Shown one piece after another: positions 8,256-34,996 of a DNA stretch of 64,000 nucleotides. The translations under genes and the position numbers were made by a program. The stretch covers positions 7,755,001 through 7,819,000 of the forward strand of contig NC_134025.1 in NCBI RefSeq assembly GCF_964204645.1, written 5' to 3'. Under the pieces are notes generated by a model. The model was given only the letters and a program-made list of their open reading frames with translations. It did not search any database and was not told the origin of the DNA. Within the stretch, counting starts at the first letter, position 1. Every line of letters starts with the position of its first letter. Source of the stretch: Tubulanus polymorphus. Its lineage: Eukaryota > Nemertea > Palaeonemertea > Tubulaniformes > Tubulanidae.

Positions 8256-8417
8256 AAGATTTAAAGTATTGTCTTCTGGTTGTTGCCACTTGGTATGTGA
8301 AGCTTGCATTCTTCTGTTAGGTTGTTCCGCCGTATCATCGATACAATTGGCTGGATTACAACATACATAAAAATAAATGCCGGTTTTTTGAGATCGACGG
8401 TGACGTCTAAAATAGGT
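8256..8417 (-). CDS. Candidate internal exon of an unidentified minus-strand gene (W-x-x-P-x-D motif)
   Basis: On the minus strand a 54-codon open frame runs from an acceptor-like CAG at 8420-8418 to a strong donor (CTT|GTAAGT) at 8256. A second possible acceptor (TTTTAG) lies at 8407. The peptide has a cysteine cluster (YVCCNPANC) and ends with KWQQPEDNTLNL. That ending shares the pattern W-x-x-P-x-D-[ND]-[TA]-[LI]-[QN] with the ends of candidate exons near 25.7 kb and 30.5 kb, and all three stop within zero to eight residues at a splice donor. That recurrence argues for a real coding exon. I do not recognise the family. Start, stop and partner exons are unknown. Confidence 0.4.
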
Positions 8418-11400
8418 CTGTACGATGAATAAACTCGACAGAAATCTATCAAAATGGCATCCGATACGAAATGCGTGAATGAAATAGATACCGAAAGTGA
8501 ATAAGATTATTTGGTTCGAAATGTACCTGCGGTCTCTCTCACCTATATATGTAATAGACAGATAATCTGTTTAATGATATACCTACATCGATTCTGCCAT
8601 GCGCTCTGTATTTTGTAACCTGGGTCTTTTTGTAGATTTGGTAAACATTCGGATGAATTAGAGATTTTTAAGCACCGATAAACCGTCAATTCGCGATGTT
8701 CACACTAGCCCGGATATTGACCGCAGCGGATAGTAAAACGGCATGGAAGCAGCATGTGTGAACTCGTTTCGTTAAGGCGATAAGACAAGTGTTCCAAACA
8801 TAGGTTGAATCTCCTTGTTGAAGCGATGACGTCGACTCCATCCGATAATTGCAGCCTTAACAGAATGCGTAATAGCTCTGCTATAGATTCGCTCACAATG
8901 ATCGTTCTTTTTCTCCTGCAAATGTGATCTTATCTAATACGAAAAAAGTGTTGTTAAGTTGTTGATGGTAATTATCTAGTAATAAAAGTACTAGCTAACT
9001 CGACCAGATATTTCGTTGTATATCTCACATCGCGTATCAAGCCGTACATGAAACCACTTATCTTGATAAGTGACTTCGACACCATTATCGAAAATAGATG
9101 TTGTTGCATCAAGTTAAATTCTCCAGGCAAGATGGAAAGGGATCGAAAGAGCGAGAATTTAAGATGACGAGAAGTGAGATCTAAAAACGGATGTATCGGA
9201 AACTAAAGCGTAATGCGATCCAAACCTATCGGTTATACTCCTTGATTAATTATACTCCTGAATGAATTGGAAACGTTCTGTTAATCAGTATGTCTCTCTT
9301 TGTGATTAGCAGCAGACACAAATTACGACGGTCTTTCATTAGAAATACCACAAGAAATATACCAATCAGATACGATAAAGTTTCCTCGATATCCTAAGGT
9401 AACATATCTAACGAATCCCATCGTCTGACACCAACAGGATAGGAATAGGAACAACCAAAAATACGTATTCTTTTCAAGAACGCATAAATATCTTATATAA
9501 AAGCCACAAAAGATGGCATAATAAGGCAATCTGCCTGCATCTAAAGAGAGGCTATGCATCTACGGTCATAGTTGCAGTCATTGGTTAGCCAGGCAATTTA
9601 GAGTACATTGAAAAAGGATTACATGACCGGGTATTGAAAAATTGTAAATAAAACATGGATGAATACGGCATTATCATACATCCGAACCAACCACGTTCGA
9701 TAGCCACAAGTCGATGAACCAGTTTGACTTAAGACGACCCATAGAGTATAACAAATCCGATACGACAAACATACAATTTCCTTGTAGCCTTGAATAATGG
9801 GGTGGATAAAATGTATATCAACTAATTCCTTTTTGAGGATTGACTCTATACGTCGACAAACCCTCGTCTTATTGGATTATGATACATAAAACCAATTGAA
9901 AGTCAACAGGTGGTCGAAATTGAAAGAGCTTTAATTGTAATTAAGCGTAACGATAACTTAACTTCGTTATTGGCGTTATTGAATTCTCTCCATGTCTCCA
10001 TGTTGTGCTTTGATTAAAAAAGGACGAATACTGCTATTTTACCGTAAAATGTTATGCCCATTTCAACGAAGCAGTATGGGTTTTCATGAAAAGCTACGGC
10101 AATGATAATCCGCTTAATAATGGAAATTCACGATCAACATGTGACTTCATACAGCTGAAATGAGAATTTTTTTGTCCCGGAGCAGTAATTAATGTCTAAG
10201 ACGACGTGCATGATTCTAACGGTTATGAAATACCTTCATTCGTCTATTTTTCAGTATCCTAGAGGTTAATGCGTTTTGATACGGCTCGACCTGAAGTCAA
10301 TCGTTATTTTTAAACTACCCTAGGATGTTTGATAATGCTAGATGTCAGGAAAGTGGGGACTACCCGGCAGATGAGCATATTTGAAAAACTATCAACTGGA
10401 AACTTATGAAAATTCTGAATAGAAAAAATGGCAATATAGTCCTGTAGAATTATGGAAGTACTCATTGTGGGGGCCTTTGAGCATTCAGCAGTAATGTAGC
10501 TCGTGAATCAATTCCACTTTTAGATTGATAGTTATTTCACATTTTACAACATTCTTTCTCAAAGAGAAGCTATAAGGGACTATTCTTCAAATTTGTTTTA
10601 TGGCATTCAATAAAACACTGTAATTATATAGAATGCGTGGCTCGAATAGTGTCTTTTTTATAATCGTCGATAGGGGCGACATATTTATTCATTCGCCCCA
10701 AACGAACTTGGATTTTACACCAACAGCAATAATGGAATGCGAAAGATAGATTTGTTCTGACGCTGCAGCACTTTCCTCTTAGTGGTCTCGATAATGAATA
10801 TGGTGAAATATGATTTGAATGTAATGAAATCCATTACAAAATTTATCGACAATTATCAAATAGATTTTTTAAATTATCAATTATAGTTATGCTGGTTACG
10901 GGCTTCAAATTCATGAATTATTTCTAACAGTGAATGTCCTTGTTTCTAGATTTTCTATTGAAATAAATCATTTTTTCGAAACCAGACTGCTTCGTATTAG
11001 AATATGCCATTATGGTTTATATGAAAAATTAAATTCTTTATTGAATAACCTATATTTTCTGTTACAAGGTAGCCATTGGCGACGTCAAAACTTTAATGTA
11101 ATTAGAAAGTATATGATCAGTACGTTAACGCAAAATTGGCCAGTCAACATTAATTTGTTAATAATTCAGCTATGTTTGAATATCGGTGAGATACGCTTAA
11201 ATGCTGGGCTTGAAATTTATTAGAGAGCTTTTAGATATGGTTTGTCATTTACGTATGCGCAGATATAAAGAAAAATATCTCTTCGAATGCCTATCAGCCA
11301 CCACTTTTAATTTTGATTTCCTTATTTAATTCACTTCCAAAAATGGTTTTTCTGCTGATGAAAAATGTTTGAATGCGAATATGAGAGTATATCATTACGA

Positions 11401-13071
11401 GGCTTCTCAACGATCGAGGTCAGAAAACCAATATCCACTTTCTTCAGGTCGTTGGTACCAGAGACATGAGGTCCGTGATATTACATTCAGCATTTCTGTA
11501 GAATGGAGTCGAAAATCGACCAAAAAGCAATCCAGATATGTTGGCAGTCTGTCAATACTTACGCAATAAACGCTACACATATACGTGTACGCATGAATAC
11601 TTGAATGATCGGTTAACAATTTATCACGAAAAGTCTGTCAGCATTTTTGAAATAATGCGTAACACAGTGAAATTATGACTTATAGTTTCATATGAAAAAC
11701 CATGAATGCCGAGAAAAACCTCCGAACGTGGAAAGCTGAATGACAATGAAATATAGGTACATTTGTAATACGATACGCAGGACTGTAATCATACTACGCC
11801 GAAGTGAAATATTCTCGGGTTATTCTCATCCTGTCACCTGTCTCGAGATATTCATAGCTCATAGCCGGAACAAGGAACCACTAAGGGGAAAATGTCAATA
11901 TAGAACTGTACGCGTGTGGAATAAGTAATTGCCGAACTGACAGATGCAGATCAAGCTATCCGCTGTACCATTTGCAATATTTATATGAAACAGTTTTGTA
12001 TTATAATCGCGTTTTGCAGCTACGGTTTCCTCGCTATTCCCCTCTCGGGACAAGGAAGAGACACTCAGAAAGGGTTTGCTGTTGTCTAAAGTCTGTCGTT
12101 GACTTATAGGATACGATTCGTGAAATTTCTATTTTTCAATTAGTGATGCTGTGAATGATGCCCGACACCGAACAATATTGATGGCAGCGTGCCGTTTTGG
12201 AATACACGTAGATGTAAATAAGAAGATAATTTCATTTTTAAATGCTGTCAACATGATAGGTAATCAGTATCTGCATTAGATAGATTAGATATTGTGCATA
12301 GTCCTCAGTATAAAATTATCGTATCACTCGTATTTTCTAGGTGATGAAGACTATTTTAATTCTAATTAAAGTTTGCCTGGCAATGAAAGCAGAGCTATTT
12401 TGACTACGAGGTGTAAAGCGTACGCGGAAATAACGACTATTTTCAATTAACGATCATTTACCAAACGACAGAAAAATTCTAATTGAACGCATTGACACGA
12501 AACCATGAAAGACATCTCTAAATTAAATGCATAGTTATCTAAGCACTTTTAGAACAGAAAGGACATGGTCTTTAGAACGCGACACCATAAGGATTCTTGG
12601 AATATGTATGGTTTAATTGCTAAATTCTTCACACATATTCCAAATGACCTACGCATTAAATAATCATTAGAGCAAAGCTACGCATAAACAATACCTAGTT
12701 TTTTTACTAGACGTAAATCCCCATATAATTCGCTCCGATAAGCTCTATCATCTGACCAGAATTAAACGCCTTTTTATGAAGCAAAGCTGTAGCCTCGAAA
12801 TTGAAAATAAGCAACAAATATGAGTTAGCAAGTTATGGCACACATTGTATCGTGATATATGGAAGAAACTGCATACAAATCGCTTCCAATCATCTTTGTC
12901 CATATAAAGTATGCATTCAGCGCAACCATACACGATGATGGTCCGAAATGTCGACTCGGATGGAAATCTACAGTGTAGTTAACCCATTTGTAAGTTTATC
13001 CAGCTTTATTCGGGCGATCGCTCGATCGACTGATCGATACGTGTCATACTCTCGGTACACTTCCTACTTAC
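8418..13071. other. No gene recognised
   Basis: AT-rich sequence with only chance-like open frames, for example 9323-9559 (-) and 10930-11223 (+), none with a recognisable domain or paired splice signals. A run of overlapping GATCG motifs lies near 13,016-13,037. It is probably intronic if the minus-strand exons on either side belong to one gene. Confidence 0.45.
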
Positions 13072-13135
13072 GATAAGCCATTTGTGGAGAATGAGTAACC
13101 TGCCAAAGCAATGAAACGTCACTACCACGAGCCCC
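13072..13135 (-). CDS. Possible short minus-strand exon
   Basis: The minus strand reads TTTAG|GGGG at 13,136 and a strong donor ATC|GTAAGTAG at 13,072. Two of the three frames are open across the 64 bases. One gives a protein-like peptide containing SDVSLLWQVTHSPQMAY, the other a hydrophobic one. Neither is recognised and the frame cannot be chosen. It is listed because the donor is strong and it lies on the same strand as the other candidate exons. Confidence 0.2.
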
Positions 13136-13267
13136 CTAAATTAAAACCCCGGAATATTGCTAAGTCGAAATTATACCAGCATAAAACGGACCAAGCGCAC
13201 ATTTCCATCGATTTTTATTAAATAGCTGGCCATTGCATTAGGACTCGAGGGTGACATTTATTTTTAT

Positions 13268-13366
13268 TTTTTTCAAATTGAGCATCCCACCCTTAGTGGT
13301 GAATTTTTATTTGTAAAATGCATATAATTCTTTTTTTTCAAATTGAGCATCCCACCATTAGTGGTG
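13268..13366 (+). repeat. Direct duplication, two 34-bp units 65 bp apart
   Basis: The block TTTTTTCAAATTGAGCATCC, followed by a short imperfect hairpin (CCAC...TTAGTGGTG), occurs at 13268-13301 and again at 13333-13366 with one substitution. It is a local tandem duplication with no coding signal. Confidence 0.85.
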
Positions 13367-13588
13367 GCAGAAACGTTTTCAGTACAAGGCCTATATTATC
13401 GCTTAGATTCAGGCGACGGTGAGTTAACATTATTGCACAGAAAGTTATTAACCATTTCGTGTTTTATGGCCCGAGAATATGCCATTTTATACGACTATGA
13501 TGCAAATGTTTGCCGATGAGGCGATGATGTGAAATTATCTTCGCTAACGTTTTATGTGTACAGTTGTCATTTCTCTGAATATTCATTA

Positions 13589-13752
<164 letters not shown>

Positions 13753-13888
13753 ATATATATTTGGATACGTCATGTACGTGTTTGTAATGATTTCCCAAAC
13801 TACTCCAAGACGTTGGATTTCGTTCCACTGGGAATACCAGACCAATGCGGCCTGTAACAGGACTCATGTAGTTTGATGATTTATTTAG

Positions 13889-14097
13889 AGGACGCCGTAA
13901 TGCTGTTACCGATGGTGCGACCTTTCACCAAAAGAAGTGAAGTTAATAAATCCATGTCACCAATTACCTCAACGCACGATGTAAAACAATACGCCACCCT
14001 GCCTTATATGTACATATACATATATATTTCTAGGATGATGTGGGAGTCTCCGAGGAATCACGGTACAGTCTGGAGAACGATTACAAAATTGCGTCAG
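13889..14097 (+). CDS. Possible pair of plus-strand exons
   Basis: A pyrimidine-rich acceptor (ATTTATTTAG) precedes an open 92-base segment (13889-13980) ending at GAT|GTAAAA. A second acceptor (TATATTTCTAG) precedes 14034-14097, which ends at TCAG|GTAATG. The phases match (1 in, 0 out, then 0 in), giving a joined peptide with DVGVSEESRYSLENDYKIAS in the second exon. The second segment is also open in another frame, and the donor of the first is weak. No family is recognised. It could equally be chance. Confidence 0.2.
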
Positions 14098-14905
14098 GTA
14101 ATGGTGACCACACGATAAAAAGCTATCGAGCAAGATTGACCCGTTAGTAAGCGTCAAGAATGCGCAGGGATCAGATTTCCTCCCATATCAACCAAACGAA
14201 TTCCCGATGCAGGACGCGTATCTGATACTACTTGGCAACATATGCGTTTTCCATGGCAGGGTTTTTAAAACTAAGATTTAAAAGCCGTTACGATCAACGA
14301 AGCGCTTCGAGTCTGGCACAAATTTATCTGCAGTCGGATGCCATGTACTACGGCTGTAAAATGCTCTTGTAACGACGCGCGATATTCCCTAATGCATACT
14401 TTTATTCCCGACTTTAAACAGCATTTGCTTTCCTAAGTTGCATTTTGGATTAATTTCGAGGGAAGATGAGCCGAGCGTCGAGAATATATACGACTGTTTG
14501 GGATAAATCGTTCAACATCACGCGGTTCAATATGTACAGAATTTTAAGATATCCACCCGGATATGTCTTTGTTCTATCGACAAAACAACGGGTTCTAAGC
14601 CTTATCTATTGAACGGTTTATCAGTGCATATTAAGTTCGTATTTCTCAAAATAGATCAACACAGAAAGTGTTATTTGTCACTTATAATACAGAAAATACA
14701 CGACGACTACAATGTACAAAATGTAAAAGCGCTATTTGGCATCTCGTGTATAACACTGATGAATTATGCAGGAACATCGTGAATTTGTCAGTGATAAAAA
14801 GCTGCCTCCAGTGAATTAGTGTTTAGGCCTAAAAACAGAGGGTAACTTTTAAAATGTTCGTATAGACGAAATATTATATTTGAGAACTCATTTCATCGAT
14901 CTCAC

Positions 14906-16103
14906 CTTTAGAGTTGATGAATTTCTCCAACGAATTGATAACATAGAAATCTTCATCACCAAAAGGTGTACTGCCATGAATTAAATCAAAAATCGGCCCG
15001 AGCCAAGCTTCCGTTGATATAATCGTGTTTGTTGTTTTATCGTAAACCTTCACTTCAGCGGCTTTTATTCGCGCCAAAACGTACATTCATTATATAACGT
15101 ATGATCAACGCAAGCATGCGCGATCAAATTCCAGCCAACACTCGCAATTTTCTATCGATATATTCCGATTATGATTATACGTTTAATTCCCGTAAACCGC
15201 TATTAAACGACTGTTCAAACTGCGCTGGCGGTGAAGCCTTCACCCATAGTTGCGGTATTTAGTCTTTTTTTCAGTGTGGCCAAACGAGTATCGATTGACG
15301 CCGATGTCATAAGAAGAAAAAAACTAGCCAGTTACTTCGATATGATAGATATATATATATATATATATATACAGATATATGATAAATATGTATATTGTAC
15401 GGTGGCGGAACGAATACTTTTGTGTTTGTCTTACGACATCGCCAATATTGTTCTACTCTCACTGCAATAATTCCGTGCGACTCGAAAAGAAGACAAATAC
15501 TTGAGAAAACCGTAATGTTTAGATAATGATCAATTTAAGTTGTGTTTTACGCGATATATAAAAAATGACGCCACATGATGCTGCTGTTATGTTTTGACGA
15601 TATATCATTAACGAACGTTAGATGCACGGAAAGATATTTTTCTGAAAATGTTTTCGAGAATTTATAGCTTACAAAAATGAGCCCATGTCGATGAGTCTGA
15701 TATTCTAAGTGTCGTCGTTACGGGAGAATTTTCAATAGATACAAACATCTCCTGAAGTTTTAGCTATATCAATACATGAACTTCTTAATTCCAAGAATGC
15801 TGGTAGTATGCATAGCTCCCCAGATCTTCTTCAGTAGCACAGAATATTTTGTCGTTTAATAGCTAATAAAAATGCGTTGTTTGACGAAGGCATAATAATC
15901 CAAGGCAATGTATAGCACATACTGCAGGCAGCCAGGCTACATGCAATCTGTAGTCTCTTCTGGCACAGACGCGTCGGCAGATCACACAGACGGACAAAAT
16001 CGGCGAATTTCAAAGTCTCTATCCGCGACGATCGACCGATAAACCGAGTCGGTAAAACGCAAATAACCATGCCTGTAATAACGAACGTAATCCATACGTC
16101 CAT
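14906..16103 (-). CDS. Candidate first two exons of an unidentified, possibly secreted protein
   Basis: Minus strand. An ATG at 16103 opens 60 codons whose first 17 residues (MDVWITFVITGMVICVL) look like a signal peptide or signal anchor. A donor (A|GTATGT) follows at 15923. The next candidate exon, 15061-14906, starts after AAAAG and ends at a good donor (AAAG|GTGAG). It encodes a protein-like segment including ISTEAWLGPIFDLIHGSTPF. Phases agree (1 out, 1 in). The acceptor at 15,062 has a poor pyrimidine tract and the continuation below 14.9 kb was not found. The product is not recognised. These may instead be internal exons of the gene suggested by the exons at 34.9, 30.5, 25.7 and 8.3 kb. 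Confidence 0.28.
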
Positions 16104-17029
16104 TCGGATGAAACCGGCGACGTGAGGTTACCTTAGTTTTTTTTGATCGAGTTCGCGCGACGCATTAGACTGGGCACATCTTGTAACTTCCGTTTACATC
16201 AATTTGCTGTATTTGGCTTTCAATGCGTGGTTGTGGCTGTGATTAGGACCGACGCGTACTGGTTGTACAGACACATTATAGATTTCTTCTGGAATTATGG
16301 ACGACGATCTGTTTCAAATGTCGGAGGTCAACGCTTCGCCTTTCTACCATAGAAGAAACACGACCATGACCAAAAATGTCACCTCCGTTCCTTGGTTCCT
16401 CGGCTCGTTATATCAAATTTTATTAGACCTTGTACTTTATTTTGATATATAGAATCAGCACTTTGTCCTTTCGAAATGGAAGCCATTCATCAAGATTAGC
16501 ATCCTGCTGGCTACAGATAGACAATTCACCAGTATATATCCAACACGAACGCCCTAGCATACAAATAAAGATCTTTACGCTATAAGCTTGTTTATGAGCT
16601 CATCAAACCAAGACGGCATGGAGGAAACCTTCGGCAGCTTCGGTAATATGGACATTATACTAACTTTCATTTTAGAAACATCGTAAAAAGTAACAACCGA
16701 TTAAAAGGGCCAAAATATTCCATATATGATTCATAACTCCAACCTAAATTTAGAAGTGGACCAAGGCGTGGATACTCAAGATGTCAGGAGAACATAGATT
16801 GGTTAGAAATGCACAAACTGTGTTAAAGCCGATGTTTGCCATAGTTTCAAATGTATTTAGATTATTCCTTTTTTGCTGCGAGCCACGACACGCTTCCCGC
16901 AAGAAATCACGTATACAATTTTCAACGTGAAAATCTCGGAAATCAAAAACAAAACACATATTATACGTGATAATTTTCGTAGCAGTTGAATGGTCTCGGA
17001 AAATTACTCGACAAAGTCTATAGCTAAGC

Positions 17030-17475
17030 ATACATCGACAAAGCGACTGGAGACAACTAATTGCTAGTGAGCGAGTACCCGCGCACATCGAAAATTTAGT
17101 AAAAACCAGCAACTGCGTGGCTCATGCCGGTCGCTAGGTCCATAGCGCACACATCGACAGCAACTGAGATGTGGTTTAGCAAATATTCTTGAGGGCATCA
17201 CAAGTCACGTGACAAATAGCTTTGTTTTAGTCAGTTACAACCATGTGTTGTTGATTATGGAGCGCTCACATCGACGGATATGAGAGCAACTGAGTACAAC
17301 TGGTTGCTCAAAAGTAAAACATGAGCAACTGGGTGGAACTGGAGATAGATGGACGCTAACCAGTCGTAAGCTCGCTCACATCGACAAATTCGAGCAACTG
17401 ATTGTATCCAGCCAGTTGCTCTCATGCGCCGAAAACTGCCTGGCAACTAGTTGTCTCCAATCGCAGTGTCGATGA
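17030..17475. repeat. Cluster of degenerate direct and inverted short repeats
   Basis: The motif CACATCGA(C), often preceded by GCGC or GCTC and followed within 30 bases by GCAACTG, recurs near 17,033, 17,085, 17,148, 17,263 and 17,377. It appears inverted (GTGTCGATGAGCGCT) at 17,467-17,481. Paired CAACTGGTTGCTC and CCAGTTGCTC blocks make local inverted repeats. It looks like a decayed satellite or foldback element and has no coding potential. Confidence 0.65.
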
Positions 17476-17551
17476 GCGCTAGGCTTATATTTTCTCAAAG
17501 ATGTATCTGATAACGCAATGTTCTCAGACTAGTCCCTGACACGAGAATCCA

Positions 17552-17617
17552 ATAGGGAAGTTTCCAGTTTCCAGGCGCCATTTCAAAATGGCGCCTGGAA
17601 ACTGGAAACTTCCCTAT
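17552..17617. repeat. Near-perfect 66-bp palindrome (32-bp arms, 2-bp spacer)
   Basis: The left arm 17552-17583 and right arm 17586-17617 are exact reverse complements, separated only by CA at 17584-17585. A transcript would fold into a perfect 32-bp hairpin. The outer arm includes GGGAAGTTTCCAG and the inner part GGCGCCATTT. It could be a foldback-element tip, a recent inverted duplication or an assembly artefact. Confidence 0.97.
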
Positions 17618-20600
17618 CAATCAACAGTCATACGTAACACATAGACGGAACCTGTTACACTAAACGCATGATATAAAACGATATCAACGAATTTCTCTGG
17701 CTTTTTCCTGAATTTAAGCTTTTTAAAAATTAAATCCCCTTACTATTACCTGAAGTTTCTCTGATTTCCAAGTAAGTGGCCATTTGAAATGCAGAAAATA
17801 CCCATCTTGCGATTCCTATTACCTTTTTTGGTTGAAACGTAAAATTCTTCATCGGAGAATTTGCTCGATTCGATCGGAATCTCCAAAATGGATATGTTAT
17901 TGAATATTAAGTATATGTATACATATATGATACATATATGTACATGATATGGGTTTAGTGGTCATCCAAAACAGGTGTGACAACAGTAATCTATGATATA
18001 TTAAAAATTCTACATTCTGGCAAAATGTCAAAACAGTAGCAACAGTAGCGAGGAGTTATGATTTCGAAGCGATATCAACATTCTATGAAATTCAAAATCA
18101 GAACAGAAACTTAGTGGTTAGCAAAGTTAGCGCCTAGCAATTGAAAGCCGTTCATTTATACACGTCATAATTAACATACACATTTTTCACCGGAAGAAAA
18201 TTCCTCATCTATTTCGTGCGGTGTGTATTTTGGTTTTCCCCGACAGATAGAAATACAACATAGACTCGATGTCACCATACTGTGGCACCGAGAAACGAGA
18301 AAAAAATATGACTCATTAGTTAAACTATACTCACCCCAGATCGATTAGCAACCTTCGGCGCATCGGCTGCCCTGCTGGAACCGGCCAACATTTTATAAAA
18401 ACAAAATAACAGTCGGGTTTTCTAACGGCAACGATGCTACTCGTACATAAAGGTATTATTAGCCGGGGACAATGGCAATTATTTGCACGCTACCTGTATG
18501 CATAGAGGGTTGCATATACGTACACCGTGAAAGATGTAATGCATCAATCAAGTAAATACATTAAAATTTGATACATGTCGTTTAGAATCGGAACCCTAGC
18601 AACGGCCGATATAACCCCACAGCCGATACATAAGTGGTTGAGGTGATGAGTAGATATAATTTATGCATACAATTAATCACGACTTGATACTTAGCTAAGT
18701 TGTATATCGCTGAATTACGAAGTAATCTCAACAAGTTTTGTATTTTTGTATTTCTGATGACGAAACATGTTCAGAAGTACGGTGTCATTAAACATTAAAA
18801 ATCTAGAGCGATAATCGTGACAGAAATAAAACGATAATTCATTCAACGTATAGCCATTTGTGTGAAGAGAAAAACACAAGTAATGGTAATATGAAAATAT
18901 CTAACAGAAAGAACTAACAAGAACTAGAAGGTAATTCTAAACCATAGGTTTGCTGGCATCTTGGACTAATCTGAAAGGGCCCATTATGCATATAGACAGT
19001 ACATACATATATAATGTACATATAATATACCTAATCCTTTTTGTTTTACCGGTACCATACAACAGCCCTCATAGGTCGAACCCGGAATTTTTGTGTTAAT
19101 TTCCATCTTTCATAAAAAAGGAGCAGTCCTTAATTTGTTTATGTTAAGCCATTTTGTTTCGAGTCCTGCTCGATTTTTACCAACGACAATCTGTGTTTAT
19201 TATGATTTTTACGAGTTTGATTGAACGTAGCAAATTACAGGACAGTTTGGTAGAATACTACAACGGACTTTATTCAAAGGCACATACCAAGAAAACCCGG
19301 AGGGAATGCTCATTACATTCTTGCGCTGTGCGTTTTGATCTACCCCAGTGAAATGCGGACTAACGGCACTATTCATTATAAATATCAACGGCAACTGAAC
19401 TGATATTGAAGGAAATCTCAAGAAAATTGCACCAAATTCAGAACTGAACCAGACGTCAAATTCTTGATACATTCACAAAGATGATGATGTCATGAATAGA
19501 TCACTCACCTTGGAATGCCGAAGAGAAACAGAGTACATGATTTTCAAATATTTCATCCTTTATCATTTTCAATTAAGTTGTTTATGCGACTTATCGCATT
19601 GATGATTGTCTCATTTTGACAAAGCAGTGACCGATTTTACGACTAACGTTCCATTGTAATTTCATCGTTACCAACCCACGGTGCCCGCAAAACATTGGGT
19701 ATCTATGCACACTATCGACTTATGAACCGTGTTTGTTCTTCGTCAATACTACCGCCCGCGACTCAATAAAAAAATATATAGATACGATGATGAAAATCTG
19801 CTTCAGAAACGATTCTCGTTTTACTGATACATTTACTAATAATTTAAACATTGCCTTTGTGAAAATATACTCTTCTTTTTCGATTAATGTCTTAATCTTA
19901 GTTTTGATCCGATATATCATAGAATTTATCATATATTGGTGGTAAAGTTCATAAATGCACCATTCGTGATATCTGAGCAATGTTGATTTTTACGCAGGAG
20001 GTCCTCATTTTGTATGACCTGAAATGTCTTAGACGCACATTCATTGCAGCGACTACGCCATCTAGAGAAGAGACACGTCTTGTTTGACGCAACCGTGGAA
20101 ATATGGACATGAATAATGAATAAAATATAGCATATCAGTGTATCATATTGTATTCGTAGTCGTGATGTATTCTTGAGCCATTTTTTCGTCGGAAATAATC
20201 TTGATGCGTTCAGTTCATAAGAAGACGGTTTACTTAATGGCAAAAAAGATGTTTAAATGTAGTTCTCTACGGAATTTCCAGAGCAAGGGCTGATATATCG
20301 ATGATAGGAATCATTATATGTTAACAGCTTGATGTCGTTCAGTTTTCGAATTAAACCCCGTAATGAATGCGAAACAATATTGGTAAGCGCGTTATAATTG
20401 CAAGGCTTCAGTTTAGTTCTGAATTTGTTTCAAGAGCGTCGGTTGTTGGCTCACTTACCCCATTAATTGGAGTTGCCAACAGTAACCTTCACCTGAGTTA
20501 CGGTTTGAAATATACACCTATACGTATTGCAAAGTACAACGAAGATATACGAAGAGGTTATTTATACAACAAATAATACAAAATGCACCAACGGAGTGTA

Positions 20601-20989
20601 CAAATTTTTTTAAGCTGTCATATAGCATATTGCGTATAGCATCGCATTAGGGGGGGGGGAAAGGTAAATAATCGTGCATAATGGCTAAACACATGTAAAT
20701 CGTTTCTTTCTTCATCTTGAAGACTCTTGGAGATTTAATAAAATAAAACTGATACGTGATAAGATTGCGATAGAATTAGACTAAAAAGTAACAACTTGAA
20801 GTAAGAAATGCTGTTTTTGATAGTAACATTAGATTCTATACGTAATTGACTGATTCTTTCTTATCAATTTACAATTTAATAATTATCAAAAAAAGAAAAA
20901 TAATGAACGTGATATTCAATAACTGTGCATGAAACATAACACGAACACTAACATGAAATTTTGTTGAAAACTTACACATACATAGCTTA
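17618..20989. other. No gene recognised; weak exon-like signals only
   Basis: There is one strong minus-strand donor (AAG|GTGAGT) at about 19,511. It is preceded by a short open frame (IKDEIFENHVLCFSSAFQ) without a convincing acceptor. Open frames at 19720-19980 (-) and 19929-20243 (-) have no recognisable features. A G9 homopolymer lies near 20,651. Confidence 0.4.
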
Positions 20990-21330
20990 ATATTGTCGAC
21001 AATAAATGATACGATTTGAATTATATAATATTAAGGATCAATGAAGTTATTTTGGAATTGAATATCGATAATTGTATTGAATTGACCGACAACCAGTCTA
21101 GCCGCGATATATTGATGGCGTAGCACACGCCCTCTCAAAAATGATTATCAAAATTTATCCAAAATTAGATAAGTTAGGAATTTTTCAACACCAAAATTCA
21201 CAATTGTAATTGTTATTTAGAAACGCTAATATTTATTACGTAGTTCACCTCGACATATACAGAACCCCTCAGATAACCCATATTAGGTATCAATATATAT
21301 AAACATTATTGTAACGGTTTTTACGGCGTC
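20990..21330 (+). repeat. Dispersed ~350-bp repeat, copy 2 (reference copy)
   Basis: A full-length copy running from ATTGTCGACAAT to ACGGCGTC. It aligns over its whole length with the reverse complement of 6307-6650 and over its central parts with 29,518-29,795 and 59,538-59,690. It is non-coding. Two full-length copies in opposite orientation with the same ends show that these are real element ends. Confidence 0.8.
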
Positions 21331-21698
21331 AAAGAAATGTAGACAAGTGGTCGTCTATAGCGTGCATGACATGTGCACGGTGACACGTGTTACTTTCTAA
21401 TTCACCAATTAGTCAGTACATAACGCCGTTACGATAACAACCGAGTTGACGCTCAATTGGTCCAGAAGTACTCTAGGGAAATTAGACGTAAAGACAAATG
21501 GCTCGGAACAGATTGTTTTGTTTCTAAATTGTTACAAAAACGTTGACTTATATCACTATCAATGTGCTCCTGATTTATCTAAACAGTCTCGGTCTACTTA
21601 ACTTCATTTTTTTAAATTCAGAATTATAGAATTCATTGAATGTTTTTTCATATTTCAGTTTAATAAAACAGTTTGTATAGTTAGCAAGTTTCAATTAC

Positions 21699-24700: not shown

Positions 24701-25570
24701 TTCATTACTCGCGAATCCCATCTAACTGTTAATCGGTATTGTTGATGGTGACGTGTCCAATTGTGAATTGTCTAGTTTTTCGGGTCAAAATAATGGATTG
24801 AATGAAATATCTTTGTCAGGGCTGTTCGAAAATTGTCTGCTGGTTCAGTCGAAGTTCAATTAGTTCACGGCTTCAAATTGCTGCCGCATTCCGTGGTTAT
24901 CGGCTGTTTATTACAGGTCGTTGTCAAGAGACGCCATTGCTCGTGGTAATTATACAGCTAGGTGGAATAACATTGCAACAATTTCTTATTTTCATCTCCC
25001 AAATGTCTAAGACCAAACATTTTGCTATTGTTCTATTTATTATGTGGTGGATGCGAAGAGGTGATTCGGCGATGATATATAACAGAGTCTGGTGATAGGA
25101 TTATTTATCGGTAGCAATTTATTAGGCGAATATATACATTCTTTTGCATCGACATCAGTCACTTTACCGGACAACAGGCAGAACACTTATTACCAGAAGC
25201 CCGAATCTATATAATTTATTTTTCTAGAGCAGCACACTTACGCGCGAGTTAGGTGGAACAGTTTGGTGGAAATCGCCAGCGATAAAAGTAGAAATCAGAA
25301 TGGAGTCTAATTAAAAACTAAATTAAGCTTTTTGAATTTTAAGCAAACTGTAAGTAATATGAAACAATGACGATGAAAATTGGTAAGCAAATTGATGATA
25401 ATCCAAATAATTCATGAGCATAATTGTTGTATTTTGTCTGCAGCTTCACGTAAAGCAAATATATATTTACATATATCTTGAATAAATAATTCATTTTCAA
25501 ATCATTCGAAAAATAGTCCTTTAGAATGTTTTTCTTGTAAGCTCCGTGTTTATGCGATGACATGTCCTAC
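21762..25570. other. No gene recognised
   Basis: Short open frames at 22203-22472 (-), 23713-23925 (-), 23967-24149 (-) and 24802-25095 (+) were inspected. The minus frame at 23713-23925 follows an acceptor-like ACAG and is moderately protein-like. The frame starting at 24149 (-) has a good start context (AAAATGGCG). Neither continues into an exon I can pair. Probably intronic or intergenic. Confidence 0.35.
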
Positions 25571-25827
25571 CTTCGCTTTGTTGGGGTCGACCACTTGTAG
25601 AGTATCGTCGGGTGGGAGTCGCCACCTTTTACCGACGGTTCGTCCAGACACTACACCACTGGCTGGTTGCATTTTCGGAATGATTTCGCACGTTTCAGTG
25701 TAAACAGCGTTTCCTAGAACATGAACCTTCAGATCCAGAATTGACGATTTGCAAATGAGCGGCAAACCTTTAAACGTTTTCTTCCATACGGTCCTTTTGC
25801 CAGCACCGGGCAGCGCTGTGACTGTGT
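25571..25827 (-). CDS. Candidate internal exon of an unidentified minus-strand gene (W-x-x-P-x-D motif)
   Basis: Minus strand, 257 bases, open only in the chosen frame, between an acceptor (pyrimidine-rich tract, then GGCAG at 25832-25828) and a donor (AAG|GTAGGA at 25571). Phase is 1 in, 0 out. The encoded ~85 residues are basic and beta-like and end with RWRLPPDDTLQVVDPNKAK, which matches the ends of the exons near 30.5 kb and 8.3 kb. A second, weaker exon candidate lies just upstream at 26034-26127, but its phase does not join directly. I do not recognise the family. The recurring exon end suggests internal repeats in one protein or tandem paralogues. Confidence 0.45.
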
Positions 25828-26033
25828 CTGCCATAAGGGATGTTCATCATAACAAGAGAGCAAAATAATGTCTCGCAAACAATTAACAGCATGAAAGTTC
25901 TAAGTCGTAGATTCGCCGAAAACGCCGTAAAACACTCATATCCAGGTATTAAGGTAACGTGGGTCATTAAAAGCTAATGATGCCGTAAATCCGATGACGA
26001 CACAAAGAGCCATCCCAAAAACCATGCATCTAC

Positions 26034-26127
26034 CTCTCCCACCATTCAACAATGTGCTGACAAATGTAACGGATTTTGTCACGGCGGTTTTGGGTAGTTC
26101 TGCCAGACAGTTTTGCCTCTGGAATGG
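26034..26127 (-). CDS. Possible minus-strand exon
   Basis: The minus strand has an acceptor-like ACACCAG at 26128 and a donor GAGAG|GTAGAT at 26034. The open frame extends upstream to 26230 and includes DKIRYICQHIVEWWER. It looks helical and protein-like but is not recognised. The phase (1 in, 2 out) does not join the exon at 25.8 kb, so it may be chance or need an intervening exon. Confidence 0.2.
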
Positions 26128-26230
26128 CTGGTGTGTAATCGTGAGTCAAAACAATATGTGCATATGTTGCTAAATTACACAGCCGGGCATAAAAGAATGT
26201 AGATCTACACCGTGTTAACGACGCCAGCAT

Positions 26231-28640
26231 TGGGGTTGTGTAAATGGAAATGTTTTAGATCATTCTGCGCCCTCGTACTTCATATATATTTGGATAATGC
26301 AATCTCGAGAATTGATTTAGGGATATCCAATCGAGGCGTAAGGACACGAATACATAATTGCCTATTACGTAATCTATATACGCAGACTATAACTGAGATG
26401 GAAAGCTCTCAAAACTCAGTAAGAATGGACAGCCATATAAACTATCTAGTTTACAGTTCATGATTAATCGAATTACATGATAAATCTTGAAAAATAAGGT
26501 TTGATTGGTGAAATATGGATTTTTCCGAAGTTAATTGAAAATGCAAGATGTCGTCCGACAGAAACGTTTTTATACTCCCACGCTGTTGATCTGTCTCAGA
26601 CGATCATTAAGTCTCGCCTGCTTATCGATGATGTATTCAGCCACGCCGCCATCCAAACAATGATGGGGCGAATACCTCCGCTAAGGCAAGATGATGTTCA
26701 CAACAGTGTCATTCACAGCATACGATACATGGCAAACAATCCAAGAAAATTACATGATGGAAAAATGGAGATGATTATCTAATGCAAATAGTCGTTTGGT
26801 AATGCATTTTGTTGTACATTGCTCATATTCCTCTCTGGCTTACGGGTATTTCCTTTTGAGGCAGTTCAATCCTAAAACATGCCGTACGGTGAATAGATTG
26901 ATTGGGCCCAATGGAAACAAACAGAATGCTGCTAAACTAAGTTTTTCTTTTAAATCAACAGATGTTCGTAGTCACAAATGAGTTAATTTTGCCCCTTTCT
27001 CGTGGGTATGAGGGTTTTGATAAAGGCTACGTAGTGAAATAATGTATTAGATTGTAGGAAAAAATTGCCAAGGGAAAAAGGCTAATGAAATTATTGATTT
27101 TTTATGAGGCATTTTATACAGTTTGAGTTAAACAATTAAGAATACATATAATGAATTCAGAATAAGTAGACGTTATGTGCAACACCATGGTAGAAATCAG
27201 AATTACACCATGATTACCAGCATCAGTACATTTTGTAAATTCAATTCATGTTAATTTTACCTGGTAGCGACCAATGCCATTTTTATTCGCTCAGCTGGCC
27301 GCATAAATTCCCACATTAAACTGACTTATTTTAGTGGAATAGCATACCGTTCTTGTTGAAAAACTTCTCAGCGAACTAATTGGCTTAAATTAATTCAGTA
27401 ATTAATCTAATAATCTCAAAAAGTGATACGTCAAAAGATCTATGCATTCAATTTTGTGGAAATTTATGCGATGATAATTTTCATTTAATTTTCTAGGTCA
27501 TTTCTTCGTCCACCGATTTATTAGCTCCAAGATCAAATGAAACTTGAGCCTACAATTTAACATATATTTCATGATGCAATCTCACATCAAGATGTGCTGA
27601 CTTGTCTGTGATGAACGAAAGCAAGCGACATCTTTCGTAATCTATCACGATCAATCAATGTGCGTCTGCTCGTGAATGGCAACGCTTTCGCGTTTTGTTT
27701 ACGAATTTGGGATTGTACGTAGAACAGTGTTCGGAAAAACTATGAAAACCCGATTCACGAATGGCTGTAAACATATGTCCAGATAATACCTATGTTTGTG
27801 ATCTACATATACTGTAATTATTTCGACTGTATTTTTGCTGTGAAATTGATGTAACTACCGGTACATAAAAGGCAACAAACATTGTAATTACATAGAAAAT
27901 TCAACAACGGGCGCAATACATATATTCCGAAAACAAGTGATTTTTTACTCCATATACTAGTTTGAAGGATCGAAAATGGATTAACACTAGCTGGTTCATA
28001 GGTTGTGCAACTTCATGTATATTAATGTCAATATGTTCTACGAAAACCATGTAAATTCCGGGAAAAGTTAGCTATTATGTACAATTGATATTAAGTAAGG
28101 TAACAACGATGTTGGCACTTCTTAATCAGTGACTTTCAGACTAGGTGACTGACACTATTGATGTTGATGTCATTGATATCGGTTACTCGTTTTACATATC
28201 AACGATCAATGATATGATATGAAATGATCTTGATATCTGCCGTTTAAAAATGATCATTTCGTTTCGAAAAACAATTATCGACGCAAAAGAAAGGCCGGCC
28301 ATTTCTCGAAATGTATCATTATTGCTTATTCTGACTGCAATAAATAGCACAACCACAATATTGTCTTGTCTCACGAACGCCTACGGTCATTTTTAATTAA
28401 CACGAAAAGACAGTCTGCGTATCGTGATTTTACATATGAATATTCGTCTATGTCTTTTTAGTTATTCGCGTGGTATGTTGATTATAAATATACCGAACTC
28501 AAGGAAAAAATCAACTACCGAAGCAGAGGGCCCTTTATTTCTAGGAAATAGATTTTACTTAGACAAATAGGTTTCATCTTGAAATGACAGCCATTATCAT
28601 TACCCATAGTTACAACATGGATAATCTAGTCAGGCATCAG
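26231..28640. other. No gene recognised
   Basis: AT-rich, without convincing exons. Open frames at 26501-26782 (+) and 28192-28374 (-) have no recognisable features or paired splice sites. Confidence 0.45.
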
Positions 28641-28652
28641 ACCACAATTAGG

Positions 28653-28989
28653 TTAGTAGCTCGAAGATGCGTAGGGCCGGACCCCAAAAATAGTACCTAG
28701 AGTGAAGAAGAGGTCCCCCATAAATGTTGCCATAATTTCTGCAAATGGGATAGGTAACGAATTTCGGTTATATGTATGAAATCCATTGATCCTGAGAGAC
28801 AGATTGATGATGAAATAAGGGATTCCCTGGACTTTTTTTGCTTGGAGTAAGGGTACCAAACACGGTGGGGGATTCCCTTAGATATTTGGCTCGGATGTAC
28901 TGGCATACCTGTACTGGGATACCCCTCCTTTCTAAAGGTTTGATTATTTCAAAAGTTAGGTTGGGTATGTGGGGCGAAAACCACTTCAA
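28653..28989 (-). pseudogene. Degenerate LINE reverse-transcriptase fragment
   Basis: On the minus strand two overlapping frames together resemble the palm region of a non-LTR reverse transcriptase. The first frame (28989 down to 28768) contains RRGIPVQVCQYIRAKYLRES, like the conserved helix before the QG motif in many LINEs. A -1/+1 shift then leads into the second frame (28859-28653) with KKVQGIPYFIINLSLRI, matching the place of the (R/K)QGDPLSPxLFNLVL motif. It ends with GDLFF, where the catalytic ADD block is expected. Key residues are lost (no DPLSP, no ADD) and the frame is broken, so it is dead. The clade cannot be fixed; R2/NeSL- or CR1-like are both possible. Confidence 0.45.
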
Positions 28990-29517
28990 TGCGTAGCTAA
29001 GATGCTGGCCTATGAGCCATAAGCAGGATTTCCCCTGAATTTACGCGCTTATATATGAACTAAACTCTCGAATTTCTTGTTTTTACTATAGGATATAGAA
29101 GATTTTGGAATAGTGGTCTGAGCTCATCAACTTCAAACCAACATTCCTGCAATTAATACGGAATTGTTCGGAATTGTCGGGAAAGCCTCTTGTACTCATT
29201 AATTCAGGGTTATAATAATAATCACTATAACGCATACGCAAATCAAACATCAATCAGCCAAATTAGTAAACAGGGTTTACATACATAATTGAAATATCTT
29301 ACAATCCTATACCTCTTAACCGCACCAACAGGATCACAACTCAGACTGCACCCTTCGAAATTACTGATACGGACATTATCAAAAATATCAAGACACGACG
29401 TTTAGACATGCTAACACTGTCACGTCATTCTCAAGTGAACTATGTAGGATCTTTAAGTGACCAGAATATCCCCACTAAAATGAAGAAGAAAACTAACTTG
29501 AATATACTTGAACCTAA

Positions 29518-29795
29518 TTTGAATATATCGATAATTGAAATGAATTGACCGGCAACCAGTCTAGCGCCGATACACTGATGACATTCTCACATTCTCGAAA
29601 AGAATAGTTATTGATATTTTACCAAATATAAAACAAGAAGTTATGAAATACATTCAATTACACATTAAACGCCAAAATGCACAAGTGTAATTGTTATTTT
29701 GAAACACCACCAATATTGATGGCGTAGTGCACAACGACTCACACAGAACCATCCTAGGTAGCAATGTACATGCACATTGCAACGGTTGCTTAAAA
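29518..29795 (+). repeat. Dispersed ~350-bp repeat, copy 3 (diverged, 5' truncated)
   Basis: It shares CGATAATTG, GACCGGCAACCAGTCTAG, AACGCCAAAATGCACAA, GTGTAATTGTTATTTTGAAA, AATATTGATGGCGTAG and ACAGAACC with the full copies at 6.3 kb and 21 kb. The block order shows a small rearrangement, and the terminal ACGGCGTC is degraded. Non-coding. Confidence 0.7.
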
Positions 29796-30409
29796 ACCCC
29801 GTTAAATTTGGCTTCAGTCATTCATAAATCTCATTAGAACCAACATCGATGTGCAAAACCTTCGAAAAGACGTGTAGATCATGCGAATTATTCATTTATC
29901 CTAGAAAGACCAAAATTATCATTCGCGCGCTGCCCACGTGAAATAATTTGCCGATACGGAAAACTGTGCTAAGCACGACAATTATCTAATGGAGAATGGA
30001 ATACCAACGTTGTTAGAAAGCCTAATTGCCCATAATCACTCTCATGGGTTGCTGTGTATACTGGTATTTAACAATTTTGATGCTGAAATCGCTTCAATAT
30101 TATCGTTTTTGCACATTTCAGATCGTTTTAAATATGAGTTGGTGTTTATACTTCGCGAAAGAAAATTTATACGTAACTTCTAAGTAATTCCATCATTCTA
30201 AACCCATTAAATGACACATATCACAGACTTCTTTTTCTTTCATTATAAGGTCATCAATATCTTTGGACAACAAATATTCTACGAGCGGACGGTTTTTACG
30301 ACCGGAAAGCGTAAATAAGTTGACGATAACAGACCCGAGCAGGTAGCATGACGTATAGTCATACAACGTGACACAATAAAGATTAGATGCTTAGGAGCGA
30401 TGTCCTTAC

Positions 30410-33400
30410 CTCAGAACCGTATTTTCTCAGATGGACTACTTGAATGGCATTATCGGAGGGAGCTCGCCACGCACCTATACCACCTCCAAGAACGGTCATA
30501 CGCGCATTTAATCCTTTTGTGTAACAAGTCTGGATGATCCAGTACGCGTAGCCACTTTTTAAATCCAACAGGTTGTAATCCAAAGCTATTGCTGCTGAAA
30601 AAAATAATATCGCATTTTTTGAAGCTTCGATATCTGATATCTACTTCGGAAGCCGCATTTCATATACATCAGTTACAGAAATACTATTTAAAGTATCCTC
30701 TAGTACCTGTGGATGACCTTATAGTGTAAGGCGTCCGTTTGCGCAAGGGAGATCAGGTTTTCCGAAGATGGCAATCAAATGGTGCTATCCCTTATCATCA
30801 GCAAACAAATAAATACAAATATCATGAAAGCTTTGTAAACAACGGCTGATGGTTTATACAATCAATGCTAGGCAGATGCGGAGTTGACGGCAAACATTTT
30901 AGCACCAATCCAATTATGATGAAAATATGTAAAATCAAAATTCAAAATTTTGTTGACGTTTGTACTCCATAATTTAGTCAATAGCGCGTTCTGATCGTCT
31001 GGCTCTGTGATAGCTCCACTGTATAATGATAATTTGATAATCGAAGTATCGGAATGATGTCGACAATATTTGGGTACATTTATCGTAGTTGCCGATATAT
31101 GTTTTCCGTGTACGTTTCGTCGAAGAATTCCAAAGAGCGTCATATATACAGTACGCATGCAGATACAAAGACTTCTCCAAAGCGCACTCCTGGTCTCAAT
31201 AAAAAGATAATGGTGCAATTAATACAATTTGGTACGAATGGTCTCTTGATAACACTCTCACGGGTACTGAGTTAATTTTTTAACGTCGAGTGAAGAGATG
31301 TGAGGTCATTATTACCTCCTGCTGACCTTTCCAATAGGCTTTCGGTGCCCGACGCTCCTGTGGTCTCGCGCTTATACTGTTAAGCTACAGAGTTTGGCTA
31401 ATGACATTAATAAAACTAACCTATGATGGCTACATATGAATATATGAGAAATGAAAATTGATGAAAAATAATAAATGTTACTCAGCCATGTATGTCCGAT
31501 TATGTACGGGCAATTATGTTCTTTACATATCGTATTATGTATCAGGAAAGCGAATGCGTATATCACTATACCTAAAGAAAGACTTGCTATCAATTTATCT
31601 TATGGCGTAAGTATTTATATAACGTATTCAACAAACCATTGCCAAAAATAATGTGTATCATCAAGTAGCTGATAGGTCTCAGAAGTGAGCATTAAGGCAA
31701 AATTTCCTATCGTCCAGGTTAGGAAATGCAATTACGAATACAGCGCCTAAAAGGCAATTAGCAAATCAGTCGTGAATTTTACATGAATGTTCGCTACTTC
31801 GAAAAAATTGTACCCCTTTCTCTGGCATCATGCGTCGACAAATACTATTCCCGCAACTGGGACCTACTCAGGTTATATACACGACAGCACAACTAACAAT
31901 TTTAAACGTGACGTTGATGAAACATACTAATAGCTTTTCAAATTAATCTCTTCGGAGAAATTGAAGTTTTTGCATGACGAGGGTAACAATTGAAATGGGG
32001 ATTATGAATGGTGGGACACCAAATACGCCTAGGATTGGATCATAAATTGAGAGGCAAAGCGCGTAAATAATAGTTTAATGATGTCCCACTCGAGATATGC
32101 AATGTACGCGCATGATGATATACGTAAACTAAGGTATCCTGTAACTGAACAATAGGAAATAGATTGTTTCAGCCGTGATGCTATCGAAACGTGCACTCAC
32201 TTTTCTGTCCTATCAATTCATCTTTTTGATGAAATATAAACAATTTCTATACGCGATTGTGTTTCTGGCTGTTTCAACATCACAGTTTTAATTGTATAAA
32301 ACTAATATCATGATACGAATGCATAAATACTATCTTTGAAGCGACAGAATGATTTGACAGCAAAAGGATCGGGCCCACTTTTGGATCAAACAGTCTTGGC
32401 AAAGTTTCGTCAGTTCTGTTTTAAACTCTGGATGCAGTATAGTTTCGAGAGCAAAACTAATTGATTTCAACTGTTAAAAGCCCGAGTTGAATGTTATAGA
32501 CTTTCTCAACATTTTTTCCAACATTCATCGCGTTGCTAGGAAATATGGGCAAGAACGAGGCAAGAAAATGGACACCCCATTCTGTCCATGGTAAAAAATG
32601 TCACCATCGATTATCGGACGTCAACAAAATTAATCATAGCCTTGCGCATATTGGATTGCCAGCATTTTAGAGATACGTCATTGGGAAAGACAGGCGTGGA
32701 ATCACAAGCGTAAACCGAACGATAACCGAAGAAAGATAAATTGATTAGATTGATTACAGTCGGAAGATGGACATTTCTTTAGATATTCGCTATATTTCTG
32801 TACAACGTACATGAACATCCCATAGCGTGACTTAATGTAAATCGTTTATTCGTGAATAGTGTCGGGCGACACAGCATCGTCGTCGTCGGCTGAATTTTCA
32901 TGATCAACACTGTGGTGTTGACTTCACGTTTTTAGTAGGTTTGGATAATACACCGTGTTACCACCGGCTTGTTTATATCATGAAGCTGTGGATGATGTTT
33001 CCATTCCCGGACACATTATCTGTGTTTAGTTTCCAATGAACAAATTAGATATCTCTTATCTCCATACACTTGAAGAAGGTTTTTAGGGTATGCTCGGACA
33101 ATGAATAAAAACAATTTGTTTTAAATGACCATCTCTCGGAATGTTCGTGTCGTGACTTATACAAATTCATTTTGCTCACTACGGACACAATCTGCACGAC
33201 ATACCCACATCTGCGTAACACGTATTTCAGTTTTTCTGACATTTGTAGTCTTGAAATCGCGCGTGCAATACGAGTGTGTTGGCGTCACGCCCACATTCAT
33301 AATCTGTAGTAAAATAAGGCGATTCGTGTGTGTAACACGCTATCGGCGAATCTAATATCGCTCACGTGCAGACACTTCACTCCATAAATATTCGTATCTC

Positions 33401-34996
33401 ATTCATATCTTCCGCATCTATAGTTGTAAAATTGGATCGTAGCGTTGGCGATGTAACGTATCTCAAAATATCGTTGACGCAAGCATTATATGTAATCTGA
33501 GATTCCCTTAAGAATCTCACGACGGATATTAGTTATACGAAAAAGTCTGACACGTGAGATATTATTTGGGAAGCGATTTGTATATTATGCTAGTGACATC
33601 ATAATGTCAACACGTCATCAGTGACATGGCATTAAAATGGTCCACGTTTCATCGAAAGCAATTTCAATTTATTTATTGCTGTATTTACGAAAAAAGGTAG
33701 AACATTTCTAAAATGCAGCATAACCATGTTTTACGTGCCGTACTTAGAATACATTATATTAAGTTCTCAGTATATTTTTGTCCAAAACAAGATGATAAGG
33801 TTTAACAACATTAGCTAAAAACCTGTTTATGATACGTATTTACGGAAACGAATTCGATCTCTAATGAAGAGTTTCTACAACAAAAGTGTGTGACTAAAAA
33901 CAAAAAGTTCATGTTTCGATGGAAAAAAAACTTTTGGAAGCCACATCGTCAACTTACTTACTTTAAACCTGGACCAAATGTTATATATACACTTATGGTG
34001 GATTGACGTACCTTTATCGGACATCGATTATCCGAGTTGTTAAAGTCAGTATGATCATCAATTATTAGCGAATTAATAAGCCATGAGAACATGCGCGAAT
34101 AGAAGAGAGAAAAAGAGAGAGAGAGCGCGCGATAAGACCGTTTTACAGTCGCCGTAAAGAACGCTTATTAAGTTGTCACAATTTCGTGTCTGGCGTGTAG
34201 CTTACGTCACAAGACATCGTCGGGTCAAAAAATATTTGATTTATATTTGTCCGCAATGATTAATCACTGTCGTTTTACGACGGCGTTGAATGACGAATAA
34301 CTATATAATAAATTCAGATTCAGATTCTGATGGTCCAGTGATAGATGGAATCCGTTCTCGGCACCAGTCGTTACATCGTCAGTTTGAATAGGCTTCTGGT
34401 AGCCTGGCAGTTTTTCAAACATATAGGAGGTACATTTAGGAAATTTTTTAACTTGAAAGATTGGGATTTTTAACTTCGAGCATTATTACTTACTGTATAT
34501 AGAGAACACTCGCATGCATTATGAAATAGCGTTCAAAAGCAAAGAGAAAACACATCCCGATATTCATTATGTTATATGGAAATACATATGAAGCCTATAC
34601 AAATGTTTAGATAAGATTCTTCGTCTCCTGTGCTTCCACATTTCGCACTTTTCTTTACTCGGTGATTGGATTCGCTTCTTGTTGTAACTGCATGCTTACT
34701 CTCGTAGAAACTATTCTAAAATGGTCCTCATAATTTGATATGTAAATCGACGAATGGGATGAAACGCGAACAATAAATAGTATTTGTATTTCAAAATCTA
34801 TTCCATTCGAATCAGAAAACGATCAAAGCCTACCTTCGTTTATGGCTAATCTTAGATTTTTGCGCGCCGGTAATGGAGCAGTTCCGATCACATACGGATT
34901 TCCATTCCATCCATAAGTCATCAAACATGCTGAATTTTGTCTCTGTGACGAATCGTTTCGGGTCATAGAAATTTGTCGTTGTATCCTCATCTCTAC
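30410..34996 (-). CDS. Two phase-matched exons of an unidentified minus-strand gene
   Basis: Exon 34996-34834 is preceded by ACAATAG, is open for 54 codons and ends at GAAG|GTAGGC. It includes SACLMTYGWNGNPYVIGTAP. Exon 30594-30410 follows a strong acceptor (TTTTTTTCAG), is open in only one frame and ends at GAG|GTAAGG. It includes SGYAYWIIQTCYTKGLNARM and then AWRAPSDNAIQVV. Phases agree: 1 out, 1 in, 0 out. The joined peptide of about 116 residues looks like an ordered, secreted or extracellular beta-rich segment, but I do not recognise it. The start may be an ATG that directly abuts a donor (ATG|GTAAGC, 35,176-35,178) on the same strand. The second exon shares its W-x-x-P-x-D ending with exons at 25.7 kb and 8.3 kb. 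A weaker candidate exon lies at about 31,317-31,400. The intron between them is 4.2 kb. Confidence 0.45.
30984..34833. other. Long intron-like stretch of the candidate minus-strand gene
   Basis: No recognisable gene on either strand. Open frames at 30868-31218 (-) and 33045-33355 (both strands) are chance-like. A GA-rich patch (about 34,105-34,128) and a small possible exon at about 31,317-31,400 (-), with a GAG|GTAATA donor and two open frames, are the only structure noted. Confidence 0.4.

Follow-up and report, generated by a model that had tools for sequence, protein, structure and literature searches.

Given that three open minus-strand segments in a 64,000-nucleotide stretch of the Tubulanus polymorphus genome (contig NC_134025.1, positions 7,755,001 to 7,819,000; hereafter the window, with its own coordinates) each end in a W-x-x-P-x-D peptide close to a splice donor, this locus raises the question of whether they are exons of one gene, ends of several genes or frames alike by accident. 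The window belongs to a 268-Mb genome of 77 contigs, and the segments sit in its gene-poor part, at 1-35 kb. A sequence-only reading had described the segments together with their donors, and we recovered the same coordinates, peptides and boundary dinucleotides, each segment ending at a phase-0 GT donor. What is established comprises the motif triple, these donors and the open frames. From the sequence the segments are likely to be related coding exon ends, and we consider it probable that they are real coding exons of a lineage-restricted minus-strand gene and that their 3' ends derive from one ancestral exon.

Three segments and a shared thirteen-residue motif

The three motif exons, named A, B and C in the order of the minus strand, all end in phase 0. 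Exon A (30410..30594, minus strand, 185 nt) lies between the acceptor TTTTTTTCAG and the donor GAG/GTAAGG and carries its motif copy, AWRAPSDNAIQVV, at 30434..30472. Exon B (25571..25834, minus strand) either begins at an ATG at 25834 (MADTV..., 88 codons, 264 nt) or follows a weak acceptor preceding 25827 (257 nt; score -1.2, this and all other splice scores being based on generic weights, not trained on the T. polymorphus genome), ends at the donor AAG/GTAGGA and has its copy, RWRLPPDDTLQVV, at 25589..25627. Exon C (8256..8417, minus strand) lies within a 119-codon open frame (8570-8214) and has two candidate acceptors, before 8417 (phase 0, score 1.6, 162 nt) and before 8350 (phase 2, score -1.6, 95 nt), and the donor CTT/GTAAGT; its copy, KWQQPEDNTLNL(V), spans 8253..8291, so that the donor GTAAGT opens with the codon of the final V. 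All three copies, on the minus strand, are supported by a leave-one-out comparison of 13-residue words and a scan for triples, and share the core [AKR]-W-[RQ]-x-P-x-D-[ND]-[AT]-[IL]-[QN]-[VL]-V.

The least restricted test of this likeness made no use of donors: it compared every 13-residue word from frames open for 25 codons or more, on both strands of the 64 kb, with IYIY frames excluded and a threshold tuned to the observed scores (every pair at least 36, one pair at least 42). On the minus strand A, B and C form the sole triple above threshold; on the plus strand the sole triple is the repeated finger spacer around HLDxLSP in a C2H2 gene, which serves as a fair positive control. These fingers (51.2-52.2 kb), the window's only other such triple, differ from the motif exons in belonging to a recognised family, in having Pfam matches and in occupying a single open frame. 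A triple above threshold appeared in 0 of 105 null strands. In the leave-one-out comparison of 294,841 words, each copy tops the non-self matches of the other two (75, 81 and 78 versus 47, 54 and 51).

Tests tied to donors or to the pattern itself agree with this result. In 1-35.5 kb of the minus strand, 17 tails come from frames that are open for at least 50 codons and end at a donor scoring at least 2.4, a limit chosen in view of the 2.5 scored by exon C, whose donor is the weakest of the three. The three best pairs among these tails are those of A, B and C (44, 35 and 33; next pair 23). Under looser limits (36 tails), none of 600 nulls comparable in tail number (mean 38.9) produced a triple with all pairs at 33 or above, and 3 of the 600 produced a pair at 44 or above. 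Tails taken from other loci form 15,218 pairs, of which 37 score at least 33 and 16 at least 44; the 12 best are EGF repeats from L019 and copies of a dispersed repeat common to L014, L024 and the window. Once L014, L019, L021, L024 and the window's right-hand minus strand are excluded (L025-L027 being already absent), a score of 33 is attained by 6 of the remaining 8,646 pairs and a score of 44 by none; null tails give 30 and none, respectively, among 77,028 pairs. The pattern W..P.D occurs five times in the six frames of the 64 kb, versus a mean of 1.55 in 60 Markov sequences, and its extension by D[ND] three times, versus 0.10, both patterns having been chosen post hoc. Within the motif, conservation is highest at second codon positions (29 of 39, versus 21 and 19), an excess partly built in by selection on protein similarity.

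One competing account is that three random frames share the motif and were picked out of a large search. The likeness does span only 13 residues, the region is poor in recognisable genes, and a single pair such as A-B could be accidental, because at least 30 other pairs, the best of them repeats, rank above it in an all-against-all BLAST of 929 frames. Against this account stand both null series, with no such triple in 105 unrestricted strands or in 600 restricted nulls, and the agreement in addition of donors, frame lengths and strand. On these sequence statistics the triple appears very unlikely to be accidental, and we hold coincidence as an explanation of the locus to be improbable.

Coding evidence and the extent of the likeness

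The donors count as separate evidence, because the 13-residue triple test did not use them. The minus strand of the 35.5 kb holds 56 donors scoring at least 2.4, and each motif copy has an in-phase (phase 0) donor within nine codons, for which the chance, by arithmetic from these 56, is about 0.016 per copy; the donor of exon A is one of three scoring at least 7.0. Frame length entered the triple test only as the limit of 25 codons. The frames carrying copies A, B and C run to 85, 97 and 119 codons, and frames at least that long contain 3.7%, 1.9% and 0.7%, respectively, of the sense codons in null sequence. No internal-exon candidate in 1-35.5 kb of the minus strand outscores exon A (18.5). 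Exon B has the highest mean codon score among 209 frames of the same region (frames of at least 50 codons, with an entropy filter), under a codon model built on 17 long frames (5,709 codons) and three known exons, with a similar set used for exon scoring; its GC content, 0.498, is equalled or exceeded by 0.17% of windows.

Several observations weigh against reading the segments as related coding exons. The donor position relative to the motif varies by up to nine residues among the copies, standing 8 residues beyond it in A and 6 in B and taking in the last V in C, and the claim of the sequence-only reading that the motif holds the same place relative to the donor therefore fails. That reading had also selected long, donor-bearing segments, which weakens the arguments from donors and frame length. 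The score of exon A is reached by 13 of 1000 null strands (1.3%), and over 75.5 kb one candidate per strand beats it (25.3 on the minus, 20.2 on the plus strand); in exon C the donor is weak, the acceptor ambiguous, and neither codon score nor GC is out of the ordinary. Discrimination by the codon model is weak, the window's known exons ranging from -0.09 to 0.17 per codon. The observed-to-expected CpG ratio is 1.1-1.4 in 1-36 kb, no mark of a methylated gene body; successive 4-kb intervals of 40-56 kb give 0.85, 0.54, 1.07 and 0.66 (three of four at 0.54-0.85), low values from which some genes there look as if methylated, and a G-protein-coupled receptor gene at 56-64 kb also gives 1.2. The A-B pair scores 45 (expectation value, E, 0.19) in the all-against-all BLAST, and under a profile built from A and B three background matches outrank copy C (6.1 bits, E 8). 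The sequence on either side of the 13 residues shows no significant likeness (p = 0.23-0.37 before the motif, 0.41-0.98 after it). Pfam searches of the minus frames of 1-35.5 kb, run to E 1, identified no domain, the best weak match being at E 0.11, and an AlphaFold model of B, made from an alignment that included A, carries no confidence (mean predicted local distance difference test score 37.7, predicted template modelling score 0.20).

Attempts to extend the likeness ended at the same borders. A longer domain common to A and B (Smith-Waterman score 49, p about 2e-4) was rejected, since p rises to 0.09-0.16 once the motif is removed; so were a counterpart of the 34.9-kb exon, described below, before exon B at 25.8 kb (p about 0.9) and the reading of LDVTVDLKK in exon C as a third copy shifted to frame 1 (p 0.33 and 0.48). 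The earlier proposal of repeated domains on similar exons thus stands in one part, the related exon ends sharing a motif, and gives way in the other, the likeness being restricted to about 13 residues with flanks at p 0.23-0.98. Such unalignable flanks, and the weakness of exon C, are what decayed duplicates of exons from a gene elsewhere, or since lost, might leave; the open frames and donors are nevertheless present, a protein search of limited sensitivity found no better copy in the species' own genome, and we regard decay as highly improbable.

The arrangement resembles tandem exon duplication, which often goes with mutually exclusive or alternative use, in having same-strand exons with the same end peptide and the same donor phase over 22 kb. 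It differs in that homologous tandem same-strand exons are found for the 13-residue motif only, the remainder failing to align, and in the disparate lengths (185, 257 or 264, and 162 or 95 nt); no convincing counterpart of the constant downstream exon of such systems emerged here. A dispersed repeat of 230-310 bp lies at 29520-29830, 20982-21340 and 6300-6653, with copies mostly 74-82% alike and 41 matches from 40 scored of 1032 candidates genome-wide. We considered it as a duplication unit or splice docking site near each motif exon and rejected it, because it occurs genome-wide.

Proposed gene arrangement and search for relatives

A candidate first coding exon lies upstream at 34834..34990 (minus strand), with its ATG at 34990 and the donor AAG/GTAGGC (score 5.2), ending in phase 1 and in frame with 30594. 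The sequence-only reading had begun this exon at 34996 and joined it to exon A. The join holds, 34996-34834 and 30594-30410 (163+185 nt) giving 116 open codons in phase. The boundary does not, because an acceptor there scores -9.4 and an in-frame TAG stands directly upstream; 34996 offers no credible acceptor, and the exon is plausible only if it is the first, starting at the ATG. No signal peptide is evident by eye at the start from ATG 34990 or from ATG 25834.

All three donors are in phase 0. Exons A (185 nt) and B (257 nt) are of length 3n+2, B from its ATG (264 nt) is 3n, and C is 3n from the acceptor at 8417 and 3n+2 from that at 8350; the 34990-34834 exon joins A in phase and, by arithmetic, also B at 25827, while A and B are out of frame with each other at the best-scoring sites. 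Those sites would give an in-frame product running from 34.99 kb through A at 30.5 kb to C at 8.4 kb, and an alternative in-frame product might run from the ATG of B at 25834 to C at 8.4 kb. Other acceptors (30529, 25726 and 8350), all weak, would permit an A-B-C series or three exclusive alternatives. We favour a single transcription unit for all three exons: a gene whose alternative 5' ends would come from duplicated exons, each keeping at its 3' end the 13-residue core of a single ancestral exon, and whose downstream exons would lie below 8.25 kb. No convincing downstream exon emerged from the exon scans and next-exon comparison, and no exon of a known family was recognised by eye in 55 kb further down the minus strand.

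The segments might instead belong to separate tandem paralogous genes, one motif exon each, strongly diverged outside the motif. Two plausible independent starts (ATG 34990 and ATG 25834) and gaps of about 4.6 and 17 kb, with space for whole genes, fit this account. Comparison of phase-0 next-exon starts after the three donors (28, 109 and 318 starts) gave best scores of 43, 41, 38 with no pair standing out, a comparison made without a null, and the 34.9-kb exon is not homologous to the start of exon B. Whole-gene tandem copies are mildly disfavoured because no next-exon pair stood out between the three intervals, and the tandem paralogues proposed earlier appear unlikely. A different account leaves the frames unspliced, making the motif the C-terminal element of three short proteins that stop 16, 12 and 13 residues after it; an AATAAA follows the stop by 48 nt in copy C and by 333 nt in copy B. 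Copy A, however, has neither AATAAA nor ATTAAA within 700 nt, in-phase donors stand at all three ends and the post-motif tails do not align, and we find short-protein ends quite improbable.

The earlier reader had not recognised the family, and no library named it for us. The exon peptides had no convincing match in Pfam at E up to 10, where HMMER filters discard most weak matches, in PDB sequences or, for the joined exon and B only, in NCBIfam. Set aside as weak were DUF761 (E 0.47), mistletoe lectins from E 0.17 and others, pantoate kinase (E 0.12, NCBIfam), IL7 (E 0.11, Pfam, minus frames), FBP protein (E 1.3) and a dehydrogenase (E 1.3); the tail of exon A against two TIM barrels designed by artificial intelligence (E about 1e-4) was also set aside, no stretch passing alone. 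The Pfam scan of 1-35.5 kb covered the minus frames and the plus strand in part; in other frames of 1-35 kb the best match was DNA_pol3_a_NI (E 0.0046, under cut-off, plus strand 1186-1617). In collections without animals, the exon B peptide gave 17 pattern stretches among viral contigs and 159 among genome contigs, none confirmed, and no match among phages. The term WxxPxD was not met among the records reached by an any-one-term literature query, which is no proof of absence. Absence from the domain and structure libraries is as expected for lineage-restricted proteins and is not itself surprising.

Each exon peptide matches only itself in the 268-Mb genome, in searches of limited sensitivity in which the motif-exon queries miss one another. 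This single occurrence makes a repetitive mobile element, whose coding sequence would be expected in many copies, unlikely. The motif half D-[ND]-[TA]-[LI]-x-[VL]-x resembles by eye the last strand of a WD40 (PF00400) blade. There a Trp ends the strand, whereas all three copies here have V, and a fixed W-x-x-P ahead of D-[ND] is not known as a WD40 feature. We rejected a WD40 reading on the missing Trp and on the absence of PF00400 from the Pfam matches of the exon peptides (E up to 10) and of the minus frames of 1-35.5 kb (E up to 1), both searches being subject to filters that remove most weak matches; a WD40-like pattern written after seeing the motif matches only these three sites in the window, which is circular and carries no weight. 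A guess at function would make the motif a short strand-turn-strand unit that is repeated within an intracellular protein of scaffold type.

Surroundings of the motif exons and meaning

The genes at 36-64 kb comprise an intron-split class C G-protein-coupled receptor and a Peptidase_C78 gene with C2H2 fingers, besides a separate SAM exon and a weak, sub-threshold TNFR-like exon, and the gene content of the window looks animal. The receptor gene (57805-63999, minus strand) has ANF_receptor, NCD3G and 7tm_3 domains, with 7tm_3 divided over two frames, one that ends at 62488 and one that starts at 58332. At 51200-53967 on the plus strand the C2H2 fingers, followed by the repeated HLDxLSP spacer, precede Peptidase_C78. 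An open frame at 45059-45544 (minus strand) has near copies of one stretch in L014 and L024 and is probably a dispersed repeat, and a long AT/TA microsatellite at 13587-13750 yields spurious (IY)n frames. Outside the window, a minus-strand frame from C1:7717081 downwards (window coordinate -37919) begins PKMVKLFKKSNKPSNVERRLSMARRAST..., contains several RRxS sites and looks like the first coding exon of an unrecognised gene.

Duplicated exons are a known kind of arrangement; the protein, should it be real, has no name in any library that we searched. A bolder proposal, which we put forward only as speculative and unlikely, is an undescribed lineage-restricted family in which alternative duplicated exons keep a constant W-x-x-P-x-D core of 13 residues as a swap-in module while their bodies have diversified past recognition. 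If the related-exon reading is correct, this would be a protein-coding gene missed by domain libraries and long-frame scans and found through the short core of its duplicated exons, and an unrestricted motif-triple test can help to separate such genes from chance without RNA. It would add an orphan family and a case of exon duplicates that diverge except at one anchor.

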